Source: Lota lota (taxonomy: Eukaryota; Chordata; Actinopteri; Gadiformes; Lotidae). From it: a DNA stretch of 64,000 nt. Made by a program: the position numbers and the translations under genes. Of the stretch, positions 30,702-49,642 are shown piece by piece (position 1 is the stretch's first letter; each line of letters begins with the position of its first letter). Location: positions 62,001 to 126,000 of the forward strand of contig JACYXH010000320.1 in NCBI GenBank assembly GCA_026745465.1. The letters are read 5' to 3'. The notes under the pieces were generated by a model. That model made no database searches and had not been told where the DNA came from. It saw only the letters and a program-made list of their open reading frames with translations.

Positions 30702-33700
30702 CTGCACACACACACACACACACACACACACACACACACACACACACACACACACACACACACACACACACACACACACACACACACACACACACACACA
30801 CACACACACACACACACACACACACACACACACACAGTAAATACACCGCAGAAAATACTCTACCTTTACTCAAGTACTGTACTTACAATTTATTTTACTC
30901 CACTATACACACACTATTTTTAAAGAATAATAATATTAATAATAAGACTGCAAATAATTACTAATACAAATAATAATAATACAAATAAGGGAATTCAAAA
31001 GTTAGGTAAAGTACAGGCCTATCTCTACACATCACTGTCACCCTAGCCTGGATTTCCAGTCTCTCTTGTGAGACCCTCGCTGTACCACAGAGCCTGGAGG
31101 ACCCTAACGGTCTGGGCAGGTGGCACTTGAGCTGGGACTGGGAGGGGACTGGGACCGGGCAGCGAGACGGACCGACGGCTGCCACCACGACTCCGCTTGC
31201 CTACGGAAGTCAGGGAGCTAACCCGGTGAAAGGGGCCTCAACCTAACAAGCAGACACGGCTTGATGTACGCTTGACTGTTTACACGCTGAAGCACAGCGC
31301 TGAAGCACAGCACTGAAGCACAGCACTGAAGCACAGCACTGAAGCACAGCGCTGAAGCACAGCGCTGAAGCACAGCACTGAAGCACAGCACTGAAGCACA
31401 GCACTGAAGCACAGCGTACCATGATGGTGTCGTACGCCCCGGTGATGAGGGCGATGAAGAGTGACAGCACCATGTAGATGAAGAGGGAGATGAAGGAGTA
31501 GAGGTAGACCTGGCTGAACACCCACACCAGGGTGCCGCTGTGCTCCATCTCGGAGAAGGTGACGAACATGTCGTCCCCGTTGATCAGAGAGAACAGACAC
31601 TCCGACACCATGGAGAGAGAGCGGAACTACACACGCACACAGACACACACACACACACACACACGCACGCACGCACACACACACGCACCCGCACGCACAC
31701 ACACACACAGACAGACACACACACACACACACACACACACACAGACACAATTACTGACATATAATTCACTGGGTCAAACACAGCGATACAGCAACATGAA
31801 CATTAGAAAACGGTTTCTATTTGGTTTTGATTTCTAGTAGAGACACAATGAGACATCCAGAGTCAGCAATGGGACTTTCCTGGGCGCTTAAACCTCAACA
31901 ACAAGCAAACGTTACACAAGCAGCTTAACTGTAATCACCGGTACCAGCATCATCTTTAAACCATGCATTATTAATAAACACATAAGTGCAGTGGTTTGTA
32001 TAGAGTGAAGTGTAGTCATTGGAAGTCTGTGAGGTTTGGACAATAGAGAGTGTCTCTGTTGTCTGTTTGTTTCCCCACAGTTTGACATTTAATTCTGCCT
32101 TGTTTGACATTTAACTGCTTCAAACCTTCTTTGTGATGTCCTCTGTGCTTTTTGAAGAAGTTCTTCCTATATTTAGTTATTTCTGTCTATATTAATATGA
32201 AGGGGTGTGTCTGGATAACTTCCAGTTTTACAGAAACTGTTCTTAGGTTCTAAGAATGTGTGTTCTAAGAATGGTGACTCTCAGCAGTCTCTACAGCCTC
32301 TTAAAGGGCCAGTGAACCCAAAACCACTTTCTTGTTTGTTTTAAACGTGGTCATTTCTCTTATATGATCGTCAACATAGTAATCTATGCCATTGTATCGC
32401 TGTTACTGAAATAAGTGCCCAATTTAGAGAAAAAGGGGTGAAATCCTGTGTTTTTGCCATTCTCCCCAAAACACTACGTGAACGTTCCACTCTGCTGCGA
32501 ATGCAGGTGGCTGTCTTAGTGTGGTAGTGTGTGTGTGTGTGTGTGTGTGTGTGTGTACCTTAGTGTGGTAGTGTGTGTACCTTAGTGTGGTAGTGTGTGT
32601 ACCTTAGTGTGGTAGTGTGTGTACCTTAGTTTGGTAGTGTGTGTATCTTAGCGTGGCAGTGTGTGTACCTTAGTGTGGTAGTGTGTGTACCTTAGTTTGG
32701 TAGTGTGTGTACCTTAGCGTGGTAGTGTGTGTGTACCTTAGCGTGGTAGTGTGTGTACCTTAGTGTGGTAGTGTGTGTGTACCTTAGTGTGGTAGTGTGT
32801 GTGTACCTTAGTGTGGTAGTGTGTGTACCTTAGCGTGGTAGTGTGTGTGTACCTTAGTGTGGTAGTGTGTGTGTACCTTAGCGTGGTAGTGTGTGTACCT
32901 TAGTGTGGTAGTGTGTGTGTACCTTAGTGTGGTAGTGTGTGTGTACCTTAGTGTGGTAGTGTGTGTACCTTAGTGTGGTAGTGTGTGTACCTTAGTGTGG
33001 TAGTGTGTGTACCTTAGTGTGGTAGTGTGTGTACCTTAGTGTGGTAGTGTGTGTGTACCTTAGTGTGGTAGTGTGTGTACCTTAGTGTGGTAGTGTGTGT
33101 ACCTTAGTGTGGTAGTGTGTGTACCTTAGTGTGGTAGTGTGTGTACCTTAGTGTGGTAGTGTGTGTACCTTAGTGTGGTAGTGTGTGTACCTTAGCGTGG
33201 TAGTGTGTGTGTACCTTAGTGTGGTAGTGTGTGTACCTTAGCGTGGTAGTGTGTGTACCTTAGCGTGGTAGTGTGTGTACCTTAGTGTGGTAGTGTGTGT
33301 ACCTTAGTGTGGTAGTGTGTGTACCTTAGTGTGGTAGTGTGTGTACCTTAGTGTGGTAGTGTGTGTACCTTAGTGTGGTAGTGTGTGTGTACCTTAGTGT
33401 GGTAGTGTGTGTACCTTAGCGTGGTAGTGTGTGTACCTTAGTGTGGTAGTGTGTGTACCTTAGCGTGGTAGTGTGTGTGTACCTTAGTGTGGTAGTGTGT
33501 GTACCTTAGTGTGGTAGTGTGTGTACCTTAGTGTGGTAGTGTGTGTACCTTAGCGTGGTAGTGTGTGTACCTTAGTGTGGTAGTGTGTGTACCTTAGCGT
33601 GGTAGTGTGTGTACCTTAGTGTGGTAGTGTGTGTACCTTAGCGTGGTAGTGTGTGTGTACCTTAGTGTGGTAGTGTGTGTACCTTAGTGTGGTAGTGTGT

Positions 33701-48200: not shown

Positions 48201-49642
48201 TACAGGTAGGGGGAGGAGGGGGGAGGAGGGGGGACGACATCGGCTACAGGTAGGGGGAGGAGGGGGTGTCGGCTACAGGTAGGGGGAGGAGGGGGGAGGA
48301 GGGGGGACGACATCGGCTACAGGTAGGGGGAGGAGGGGGGAGGAGGGGGCGTCGGCTACAGGTAGGGGGAGGAGTGGGGAGGAGGGGGGACGACATCGGC
48401 TACAGGTAGGGGGAGGAGGGGGGAGGAGTGGGGAGGAGGGGGGACGACATCGGCTACAGGTAGGGGGAGGAGGGGGGAGGAGGGGGGAGGACATCGGCTA
48501 CAGGTAGGGGGAGGAGGGGGGAGGAGGGGGGACGACATCGGCTACAGGTAGGGGGAGGAGGGGGGAGGAGGGGGCGTCGGCTACAGGTAGGGGGAGGAGG
48601 GGGGAGGAGGGGGGACGACATCGGCTACAGGTAGGGGGAGGAGGGGGGAGGAGTGGGGACGACATCGGCTACAGGTAGGGGGAGGAGGGGGCGTCGGCTA
48701 CAGGTAGGGGGAGGAGGGGGCGTCGGCTACAGGTAGGGGGAGGAGGGGGGAGGAGTGGGGACGACATCGGCTACAGGTAGGGGGAGGAGGGGGGAGGAGG
48801 GGGGAGGAGGGGGGGCGTCGGCTACAGGTAGGGGGAGGAGGGGGCGTCGGCTACAGGTAGGGGGAGGAGGGGGGGCGTCGGCTACAGGTAGGGAGAGGAG
48901 GGGGGAGGAGTGGGGGGCATCGGCTACAGGTAGGTGGAGGAGGGGGGCGTCGCCTACAGGTAGGTGGAGGAGGGGGAGGAGTGGTGGGGGGCCTCCAGGA
49001 GGGGGGGGGGATGGTGTCCTCCGGGGCCACACCTCCTCACCCGCAGGGCCGTAGGAACACTATGGCCGCCTACCACCAGCCGAATGGACTTGGTGTTTCG
49101 GCTGAGCTGCTGGAGCATTGGGGTTGCCTTGTGTCCCTTGTATTTCCAATCTGGGATCAATAAAGTTCTATCTCATCTCATCTGACGGCTGCCGTCTCTC
49201 CCTCACGAAGCTTCGTGGCCGGTTCTGACGGCTACCTGTACGAGGGCCGTGGCTGGCGCAGGCAGGGGGCCCACACGCTGGGCCACAACGCAGAGGGCTA
49301 CGGCGTGGCCTTCATAGGGGACTACTCGTCCCGCCTGCCCAGCAACGGCTCGCTGGAGCTGGTGAGGGAGCGGCTGGCGCGCTGCGCGGTGGCCAGCGCC
49401 ACGCTGGTGGCTAACTACACGGTTCACGGCCACAGACAGCTGGTCAGCACCACCTGCCCCGGAGACGCGCTGTACCAAGAGATCACAGGGTGGACGCACT
49501 TTGGGGTGAGCAGCCTTCCAGTGCGGCCTCACGCCATTCCTGTACACGCTCCCCTGCATGGTGTGCAAGTACAGCAGTGTAGCACTGTCAAAAGGAGTAA
49601 GTCACTGTGTTTGTTTGTTGACAGGAGGTCACCGGAGTGTGA
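45200..49642 (+). CDS. pglyrp2: Long peptidoglycan-recognition protein / N-acetylmuramoyl-L-alanine amidase, six exons
   Basis: PGLYRP2-type proteins are secreted zinc amidases that cut the lactyl-alanine bond of peptidoglycan and damp its inflammatory activity. The model gives 476 residues: a signal peptide (residues 1-20, hydrophobic TLVVLTAWAA), a long N-terminal region (about 21-302), and the PGRP/amidase domain (303-476). The zinc ligands are present: His in YIHHT, His in VHGHR and Cys in TTCPGD. The catalytic Tyr in DIGYSF is also present, so the enzyme should be active. Zebrafish has more than one long PGRP. PGLYRP2 is favoured because human PGLYRP2 also lies beside WIZ; pglyrp6 is the alternative. 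Intron 4 holds about 30 copies of the donor region. AATAAA signals lie at 49,682 and 49,693. Confidence 0.86.
45631..45835. repeat. GT-rich run at the pglyrp2 exon 2 acceptor
   Basis: GTGTGT tracts broken by TATG, CTGTG and (TATG)n, reaching the GAAG acceptor. Confidence 0.93.
45838..46523 (+). CDS. pglyrp2: pglyrp2 exon 2 (N-terminal region, residues 22-250)
   Basis: It encodes ATLTWHMSDFIAAVEKLELS through the GC-rich N-terminal region of long PGRPs, with the motif SLDNPFLRHFLGPL, and ends ENFRQL. The acceptor GTGTGAAG closes a (GT)n-rich run of about 200 bp. The donor is CAGCTG|GTATTA, phase 0. Confidence 0.85.
46655..46745 (+). mobile_element. LINE-like 3' tail in pglyrp2 intron 2
   Basis: TTTAATGTGGGCCTGTGAAG, then CTGTGATAAAGGGCTATAA. 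A diverged relative of the element at 35.3 kb. Confidence 0.55.
46895..47051 (+). CDS. pglyrp2: pglyrp2 exon 3 (residues 251-302)
   Basis: It encodes VGRQRPLLARQVLRSLELQL and then KERNKVVALVNTEMKEFVLK, an amphipathic helical linker before the PGRP fold. The acceptor is TTATGTTAG and the donor is ATGG|GTGAGA, phase 1. Confidence 0.85.
47335..47454. repeat. Inverted repeat in pglyrp2 intron 3
   Basis: CCAAGAAGGAAGAAATATCT on the left pairs with its complement ending CTTCTTGG on the right. The inner palindrome AAATGTGGCACCATGG continues into its own complement. It lies 58 bp before exon 4. Confidence 0.85.
47513..47723 (+). CDS. pglyrp2: pglyrp2 exon 4 (first half of PGRP domain)
   Basis: It encodes DCPPIVPRCMWRAAPYRG, MYIHHT (zinc-ligand His), FESCAADMRAMQRFHQE and GWDDIGY(S). 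The acceptor is CTCCCCAG. The donor ACAG|GTAGGG, phase 2, is the first of about 30 tandem copies. Confidence 0.92.
47705..48965. repeat. Minisatellite at pglyrp2 intron 4 donor, about 30 units
   Basis: Each unit holds ATCGGCTACAG|GTAGGGGGAGG or a shortened form, with a variable GGAGGGGG tail, so unit length ranges from about 30 to 66 bp. The first unit is the true end of exon 4. Confidence 0.95.
49045..49190 (+). mobile_element. Rex1-type LINE 3' end in pglyrp2 intron 4
   Basis: Ends TCTGGGATCAATAAAGTTC followed by TATCTCATCTCATCT, the kind of tail attributed to CR1-like Rex1 elements. It contains an AATAAA just before exon 5. Confidence 0.5.
49211..49505 (+). CDS. pglyrp2: pglyrp2 exon 5 (second half of PGRP domain)
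   Basis: It encodes SFVAGSDGYLYEGRGWRRQG, AEGYGVAFIGDYSS, TVHGHRQLVSTTCPGDALYQ and TGWTHFG, including the second His and the Cys zinc ligands. The acceptor is TCACGAAG and the donor is TTTGGG|GTGAGC, phase 0. Confidence 0.92.
49625..49642 (+). CDS. pglyrp2: pglyrp2 exon 6 (last five residues and stop)
   Basis: The acceptor GTTGACAG|GAG gives EVTGV and then TGA, in phase with exon 5. The exon is short, so this end is less certain than the rest. Confidence 0.6.
   Translation, partial: EVTGV

Follow-up and report, generated by a model that had tools for sequence, protein, structure and literature searches.

Minisatellites cross four splice junctions in three neighbouring genes of the burbot, Lota lota. 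The window analysed here is a 64,000-nucleotide (nt) stretch of contig JACYXH010000320.1 (GenBank assembly GCA_026745465.1, positions 62,001 to 126,000 of the forward strand); all coordinates below are positions in this window. Its tandem arrays are real and run over three donors, those of introns 3 and 11 of mcoln1 and of intron 4 of pglyrp2, and over one acceptor, that of the coding intron of trappc5. The explanation that we favour, and hold to be probable, is that these are existing introns whose exon/intron border was stretched by tandem duplication, with splice signals seeding the repeats and splicing tolerating them. On this view the arrays look like a side effect of a genome prone to repeats, one that splicing hides, and not like intron birth.

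Anatomy of the junction-spanning arrays

The arrays, the exon bases that they include and the repeats that accompany them are the following.

39379..40145, minus strand: donor array of mcoln1 intron 3, period 32-35 (mostly 33 and 35), 23 donor copies
40124..40145, minus strand: 22 nt of the mcoln1 exon 3 tail within the array unit; the exon ends at 40124
32515..34277, minus strand: donor array of mcoln1 intron 11, period 22-24, 76 copies with AG/GT (the slash marks the junction) and one with AG/AT
34265..34277, minus strand: 13 nt of the mcoln1 exon 11 tail within the array unit
47705..48989, plus strand: donor array of pglyrp2 intron 4, main period 44, 30 donor copies
47705..47723, plus strand: 19 nt of the pglyrp2 exon 4 tail within the array unit
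43071..43346, minus strand: acceptor array of trappc5, period 39-40, 7 acceptor copies
43071..43074, minus strand: 4 nt of trappc5 exon within the array unit
31287..31415, minus strand: array of a 13-bp unit in mcoln1 intron 12, no exon bases
39276..39363, minus strand: sense-strand (TG)44 of mcoln1 intron 3, separated by 6 nt from the acceptor at exon 4
31629..31749, minus strand: sense-strand TG-rich array of mcoln1 intron 11, separated by 2 nt from the acceptor at exon 12

The first-pass annotation had described units made of an exon edge plus GT, or of AG plus an exon start, around an AGGT core, and mapping bears this out at all four junctions; the AGGT carried by the units yields their GT and AG ends. 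It had also placed a fifth array near the donor of mcoln1 intron 12, which is confirmed, 4 nt separating the two so that the array starts at intron base 5. Exon bases make up 22 of ~33-35 nt of the unit in intron 3, 13 of 22 in intron 11, 19 of 44 in pglyrp2 and 4 of 40 in trappc5. The duplicated segment is not purely exonic, as the units also hold intron sequence, and each trappc5 unit comprises a branch-point-like CTRAY, pyrimidines, GCAG and GTGA. Since the exon bases of the donor units encode protein sequence shared among vertebrates (the HALDQ and PYHAK regions of mcoln1, GWDDIGY of pglyrp2), the arrays derive from the exons. In intron 3, the outer copy is joined to the exon and the innermost copy continues into the remaining intron, including the TG run at the acceptor.

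This arrangement suggests a simple series of events. First, a short stretch across the junction, made up of an exon edge and GT or of AG and an exon start, would have been duplicated; slippage or unequal exchange, in a genome with many tandem repeats, would then have multiplied its copies. The outermost copy would keep its link to the exon body and, at donors, the innermost its link to the former intron body, as is clearest in intron 3, so that everything between would be a run of GT...AG units removed with the intron. Both the order of the duplication events and the mutational mechanism are what we infer from the arrays as they now stand. A suitable genomic background is documented in related fishes: Atlantic cod has the highest tandem-repeat density among the assemblies compared, haddock is also high, and both carry unusually many tandem repeats in coding regions too (PMC5241972, PMC5894186).

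Misassembly of the arrays or of their copy numbers is very improbable, even though repeats are known to cause assembly error (PMC6868369), as the copies differ by interspersed substitutions and indels, each array edge runs into coherent exon and intron, and there are no Ns.

The two array-bearing mcoln1 exon ends encode residues that differ between burbot and cod relatives. The majority unit of the intron 11 array (CACACTAAG, 58 of 76) would encode H-T-K, the residues at the exon end in Gadus, Boreogadus and Arctogadus, whereas burbot exon 11 itself (34265-34277) has CACGCTAAG, encoding H-A-K, as in Polymixia. An H-A-K exon next to H-T-K units (32515-34264) may reflect CpG decay or conversion between array and exon. 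Exon 3 is the other array-bearing mcoln1 exon end with an A-to-T residue difference: its tail (40124-40145) encodes HHALDQ in burbot against HHTLDQ in cod relatives (HHTLHQ in G. morhua), a difference that separates burbot from three of the four aligned cod-relative proteins. Elsewhere, the end of pglyrp2 intron 4 (49041-49190) resembles, by eye only, the 3' tail of a retroelement (AATAAAGTTCTATCTCATCTCATCT).

Age of the introns

The first-pass annotation had offered the arrays as snapshots either of intron creation or of intron growth. Creation through tandem duplication of AGGT-bearing exon segments would agree with units that start with GT and finish with AG, as in the Rogers model (PMC4974935). 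We nevertheless consider it scarcely credible, given that the units include intron sequence and not exon alone, straddling junctions that already exist, and that two of the introns are old and a third probably so. Growth, on the other hand, is upheld: without the extra copies the introns would measure only 115 (intron 3), 932 (intron 11), 251 (pglyrp2) and 50 nt (trappc5).

The trappc5 intron is old, as judged from protein alignments, because its position is common to other fishes. Among 17 relatives picked and aligned from the 120 listed of 605, six have 22-25 additional residues exactly at the intron point, and these inserts start with V and end with Q, as expected of a retained GT...CAG intron. 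One carrier is Oryzias melastigma and five come from read assemblies, with P0007 and P0040 nearly alike. In three further models, P0043 (Coryphaenoides), P0035 (Dissostichus) and P0052 (Scomber), nine residues are absent just before the intron point. The nine dropped codons correspond to 43362-43400; the predictor perhaps took an upstream donor, the true intron perhaps being too short for it.

Intron 3 of mcoln1 lies at the aligned Q135/Y136 of mammalian mucolipin-1 (PDB 5ydz), which is c.406. We take this structure to be that of the mouse protein, with human numbering presumably agreeing at Q135/Y136. A splice-site mutation of human MCOLN1 is described at c.406-2, before codon 136 (PMC7348969). 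As the burbot position matches this human boundary, the intron is, on alignment, old.

For pglyrp2 intron 4, a Coryphaenoides model (P0245) carries 29 additional residues precisely where the intron lies (47724), so that creation is disfavoured there as well, by this one protein. The insert is rich in Glu and Gly and ends V-S-Y ahead of S-F-V. Either an 87-nt purine-rich intron may have been retained in the model, or a second donor copy may have been used after an exon-like (G/A)GCTACAG; the second reading, if true, would mean an independent junction duplication in a grenadier. Intron 4 is probably old. Because the intron positions tested are old or probably so, the arrays are taken to be stretched introns and not new ones.

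Stacking of repeats at exon edges

Beyond the four straddled junctions, array ends stack at exon edges throughout the genes of the window, a strong pattern that was absent from the first-pass annotation. Out of 27 repeat loci, 16 end no more than 7 nt from a junction or run across it, against 4.1 expected without overhang or 6.6 with a 25-nt overhang (p 5e-5), and p stays at or below 0.0008 at Tandem Repeats Finder score cut-offs from 30 to 120. When the five reported arrays are removed, 11 of 22 loci are still stacked against 1.2 expected (p 5e-5), in a test that left placed arrays free to overlap each other. Nine of these other 11 arrays abut acceptors, where they form TG, C-rich or CTC runs, and two abut donors; the TG/CA type accounts for six arrays no more than 7 nt from acceptors, and every one is TG on the sense strand.

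30705-30836, 31629-31749, 36624-36683, 39276-39363, 40289-40330, 45633-45834, 52384-52446, 57371-57407 and 60369-60441: TG, C-rich or CTC repeats no more than 7 nt from nine acceptors
35912-35941 and 36868-37259: arrays without exon bases whose ends lie 6-7 nt inside the donors of mcoln1 exons 8 and 6

All p-values come from this one window. Placement was tested for the 27 loci in 29 introns under two nulls, in which each intronic array had either no overhang or up to 25 nt of exon overhang; the first of these forbids overlap, and its overlap p is therefore meaningless. The intron 3 arrays overfill their intron by one base in the nulls, so that without overhang they always count as near or overlapping, which is conservative. 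The intron set excludes the interval between the exons at 57833 and 59713 of the fourth gene, a plus-strand C2H2 zinc-finger gene that we take to be wiz-like, as an alternative first exon may lie there. Repeat loci of positions 1..30500 fell outside every statistical test.

The excess of arrays that actually overlap a junction is modest and depends on the null. Treating the unit as seed (11 hand-chosen minisatellites, 60 junctions), 0.59 straddlers are expected, with P(4 or more)=0.003, a post hoc estimate. The earlier statement that such arrays are far from random placement thus stands for the stacking of their ends and only in part for overlap, whose p ranges from 0.003 to 0.85.

Tolerance by splicing would let straddling duplications survive; stacking needs more, namely seeds and exon-edge anchors. 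Junction neighbourhoods may be favoured starts because splice signals consist of simple or repeated sequence (at acceptors, TG and pyrimidine runs), and also because selection would eliminate losses extending over an exon edge. Splice signals would in this manner act as seeds and exon edges as anchors. Should the stacking hold genome-wide, it would join the question of where minisatellites are born with that of how introns lengthen. Coding exons of the four genes contain seven repeat loci, and the period of each is a multiple of three, as it should be if duplications arise and selection then sifts them; two of the loci lie in wiz-like.

53831-54185: in-frame coding minisatellite of wiz-like, 39 bp x 9, 100% match
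54940-55228: in-frame coding minisatellite of wiz-like, 72 bp x 4

The four straddled junctions share a further feature in that all are AG/GT, a motif present at 12 of 30 donors and 2 of 29 acceptors (P ~0.004, post hoc). This P becomes ~0.005 when one mis-set donor is counted: the ends of the trappc5 untranslated-region intron had been set a few bases off (non-GT/AG), which affects one AG/GT count and no stacked array. Repair or slippage that preferentially duplicates AG/GT junctions would produce such a bias. We regard this mutational preference as improbable, for most junction-abutting arrays have no AGGT in their listed unit, the donor consensus by itself makes AG/GT frequent, and selection predicts the identical bias, since AG/GT units stay removable as GT...AG. 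Hence the earlier suggestion of local slippage favouring junctions gains from the stacking of array ends, while its AGGT route is weakly suggested at best, 9 of the 11 other stacked arrays being acceptor runs of other composition.

Choice among splice copies

Translation of the exon, the extra units and the next exon indicates what each wrong copy would yield. Wrong acceptors in trappc5 lead to a stop in 6 of 6 cases, and wrong donors do so in 75 of 75 cases in intron 11 and 29 of 29 in pglyrp2 intron 4. In intron 3, 14 of the 22 wrong donors give a stop, two keep the frame and six shift it but meet no stop before exon 4 ends. A normal protein needs the exon-side (outer) copy. The annotated Lota proteins P0121 (mucolipin) and P0241 (PGLYRP2) agree, at the level of annotation only, with use of that copy; no Lota TRAPPC5 was among the matches listed (120 of 605). 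The outer copy is presumably the one spliced in vivo, and mis-spliced products would be cleared by nonsense-mediated decay.

Junction-straddling duplications would therefore be among the few exon-touching ones that leave the protein unchanged, and selection tolerating repeats where splice signals are regenerated, the other alternative raised in the first-pass annotation, is the best fit: the exon stays on an intact copy and the rest is intron. With its 76 near-identical AG/GT donors, of which the protein needs the first, mcoln1 intron 11 offers a natural test of splice choice.

Observations that weigh against stretched junctions

Several observations weigh against the explanation by stretched, splicing-tolerated junctions. 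First, the array of intron 11 ends in an exon-like copy followed by AAGACAGCC, which is not a donor, so that an innermost donor joining the old intron is not evident there. Second, the pglyrp2 part of the age argument depends on a single grenadier gene model with two readings. Third, under the 25-nt overhang null, overlap is no more frequent than expected for all 27 loci (4 seen, 5.2 expected, p=0.85), and the 9 complex minisatellites taken by themselves give 4 against 2.0 (p=0.08). Likewise, per-base repeat coverage in the window shows no rise toward junctions; it is the array ends that stack. Finally, splice signals in the copies are not convincingly better conserved than the remaining unit, with P 0.056 in intron 3, 0.9995 in intron 11, 0.0001 in pglyrp2 and 0.38 in trappc5, in a comparison where the MAFFT alignment places gaps wrongly in intron 11 and pglyrp2, the tested motif also served to delimit the units, and an anchored recount retained only 8 intron 3 units after the length filter.

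Selection protecting the decoy splice signals was considered as a separate candidate and dropped, the P values being contradictory across the four arrays.

The overlap results are also what chance would give in a repeat-saturated region, the pattern having been noticed because it was sought: p lies between 0.08 and 0.85 under the generous nulls, and the case is post hoc. The edge stacking, as strong with as without the five reported arrays, is hard to square with this, and we give chance as little credence as an AGGT-specific mutational process.

Pairing between intron ends

A functional role has also to be weighed. In the (AC)m-(GU)n introns of zebrafish, base pairing brings the splice sites together and U2AF2 is not needed (PMC9024468, PMC9198270, citing Lin 2016), and the donor arrays of introns 3 and 11 could form an AC arm, their acceptor TG runs a GU arm, the arrays being kept for pairing. 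The likeness lies in an AC-rich donor side facing an acceptor GU repeat, clear in intron 11 (15 ACAC and 19 GTGT in the 120-nt ends) and weak in intron 3 (4 and 21). Pglyrp2 (0 and 2) and trappc5 (2 and 0) lack this AC/GU composition. In contrast to the zebrafish introns, the burbot donor arm is a 22- to 35-bp minisatellite that contains exon bases.

The donor and acceptor ends of introns 11 and 3 form the most stable duplexes among the 29 introns (-120.4 and -95.5 kcal/mol), with ranks of 2nd and 4th of 29 when set against foreign acceptors. The remaining array introns come third and fourth (trappc5 -86.2, pglyrp2 -79.4), and the uniform TG sense of acceptor arrays noted above would also suit pairing. 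Yet the energies of introns 11, 3 and pglyrp2 match those of dinucleotide shuffles (introns 11 and 3 within one standard deviation), so that composition would explain them. Only trappc5 is ~2 standard deviations stronger than its shuffles, and it lacks AC/GU arms; in four other introns, the acceptor end is TG-rich and the 120 nt at the donor contain no ACAC, and pairing leaves both pglyrp2 and trappc5 unexplained. A pairing function thus seems unlikely, if somewhat less so than chance.

Relation to known systems

The arrays are different from the nearest known kinds in their recurrence at existing junctions, in copy number and in the general stacking of repeats on exon edges. Intron gain by tandem duplication of AGGT segments is known from ATP2A1 and from 24-bp AGGT segments present in multiple copies in fission yeast (PMC4974935); as here, these cases involve tandem AGGT copies, GT and AG unit ends and, in some, many copies. 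The burbot segments differ in that they straddle an existing junction, the intron having been present already where tested. Introns of Drosophila that arose through tandem duplication are also among the nearest kinds (PMC2891723).

Internal tandem repeats at human exon-intron boundaries are likewise minisatellites with units of ~30 bp. These are described as lying in recent segmental duplications, with four copies on average, able to create new or alternative introns (PMC2812944), whereas the burbot proteins fit a single outer copy and copy number reaches 77. Titles and abstract openings in the open-licence literature listed no description of fish minisatellites that run across splice donors.

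The closest parallel to trappc5 is intron 5 of canine LHX3, in which repeat copies set intron length and contraction below a donor-branch limit breaks splicing (PMC3223203). In trappc5, the whole 3' splice site is duplicated as well, and dependence on the repeat is proposed here from distances. Its branch-point-like A residues, identified by motif with the pyrimidine tract judged by eye, lie 27, 67, 107, 147, 187, 226 and 265 nt from the donor, and a single-copy equivalent would be a 50-nt intron with its A at 27 nt. A survey puts the lower limit of this distance at ~50 nt, not strictly (PMC3223203); at 27 nt the single-copy form lies below it, and the repeat copies may thus be needed for splicing, if the limit holds in fishes. 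Trappc5 would then be a natural case of repeat variation turning essential to splicing. Its units also conform, in motif only, to recursive splice sites (AG/GT with an upstream branch point and pyrimidine tract).

More tentatively, gadids might possess a class of 'stretched-junction' introns with tens of near-identical decoys, which would be harmless because each unit is a re-spliceable GT...AG piece; some of the arrays, as in trappc5, would be load-bearing, their copy number tuning splicing. We hold this to be possible and well short of likely.

Gene models

Gene models and junctions were derived from the window sequence and then compared with proteins of relatives; the mucolipin and PGLYRP2 matches indicate burbot or a very near relative as the source.

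30570..41169, minus strand: mcoln1b coding region, 13 coding exons (sequence model and relatives)
42778..43631, minus strand: trappc5 coding region, two coding exons (sequence model and relatives)
43075..43361, minus strand: trappc5 coding intron, 287 nt in length, of which six repeat units account for all but 50 nt
45200..49642, plus strand: pglyrp2 coding region, six coding exons (sequence model and relatives)

No gene was recognised by eye in the open reading frame list for positions 1..30500, where no family search was made. The wiz-like gene gave one zf-C2H2 match (E 9e-5, below the Pfam cut-off) in one of the two exon stretches checked. The end of pglyrp2 exon 5 was set at 49505 (against 49504) to preserve the frame, and the resulting model is 97% identical to Lota lota P0241. 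Exon 4 of mcoln1 spans 39113..39269, its start having been fixed, 18 nt earlier, by Lota lota P0121, and the mucolipin model equals this protein at all aligned residues, six residues being missing from the model compared.

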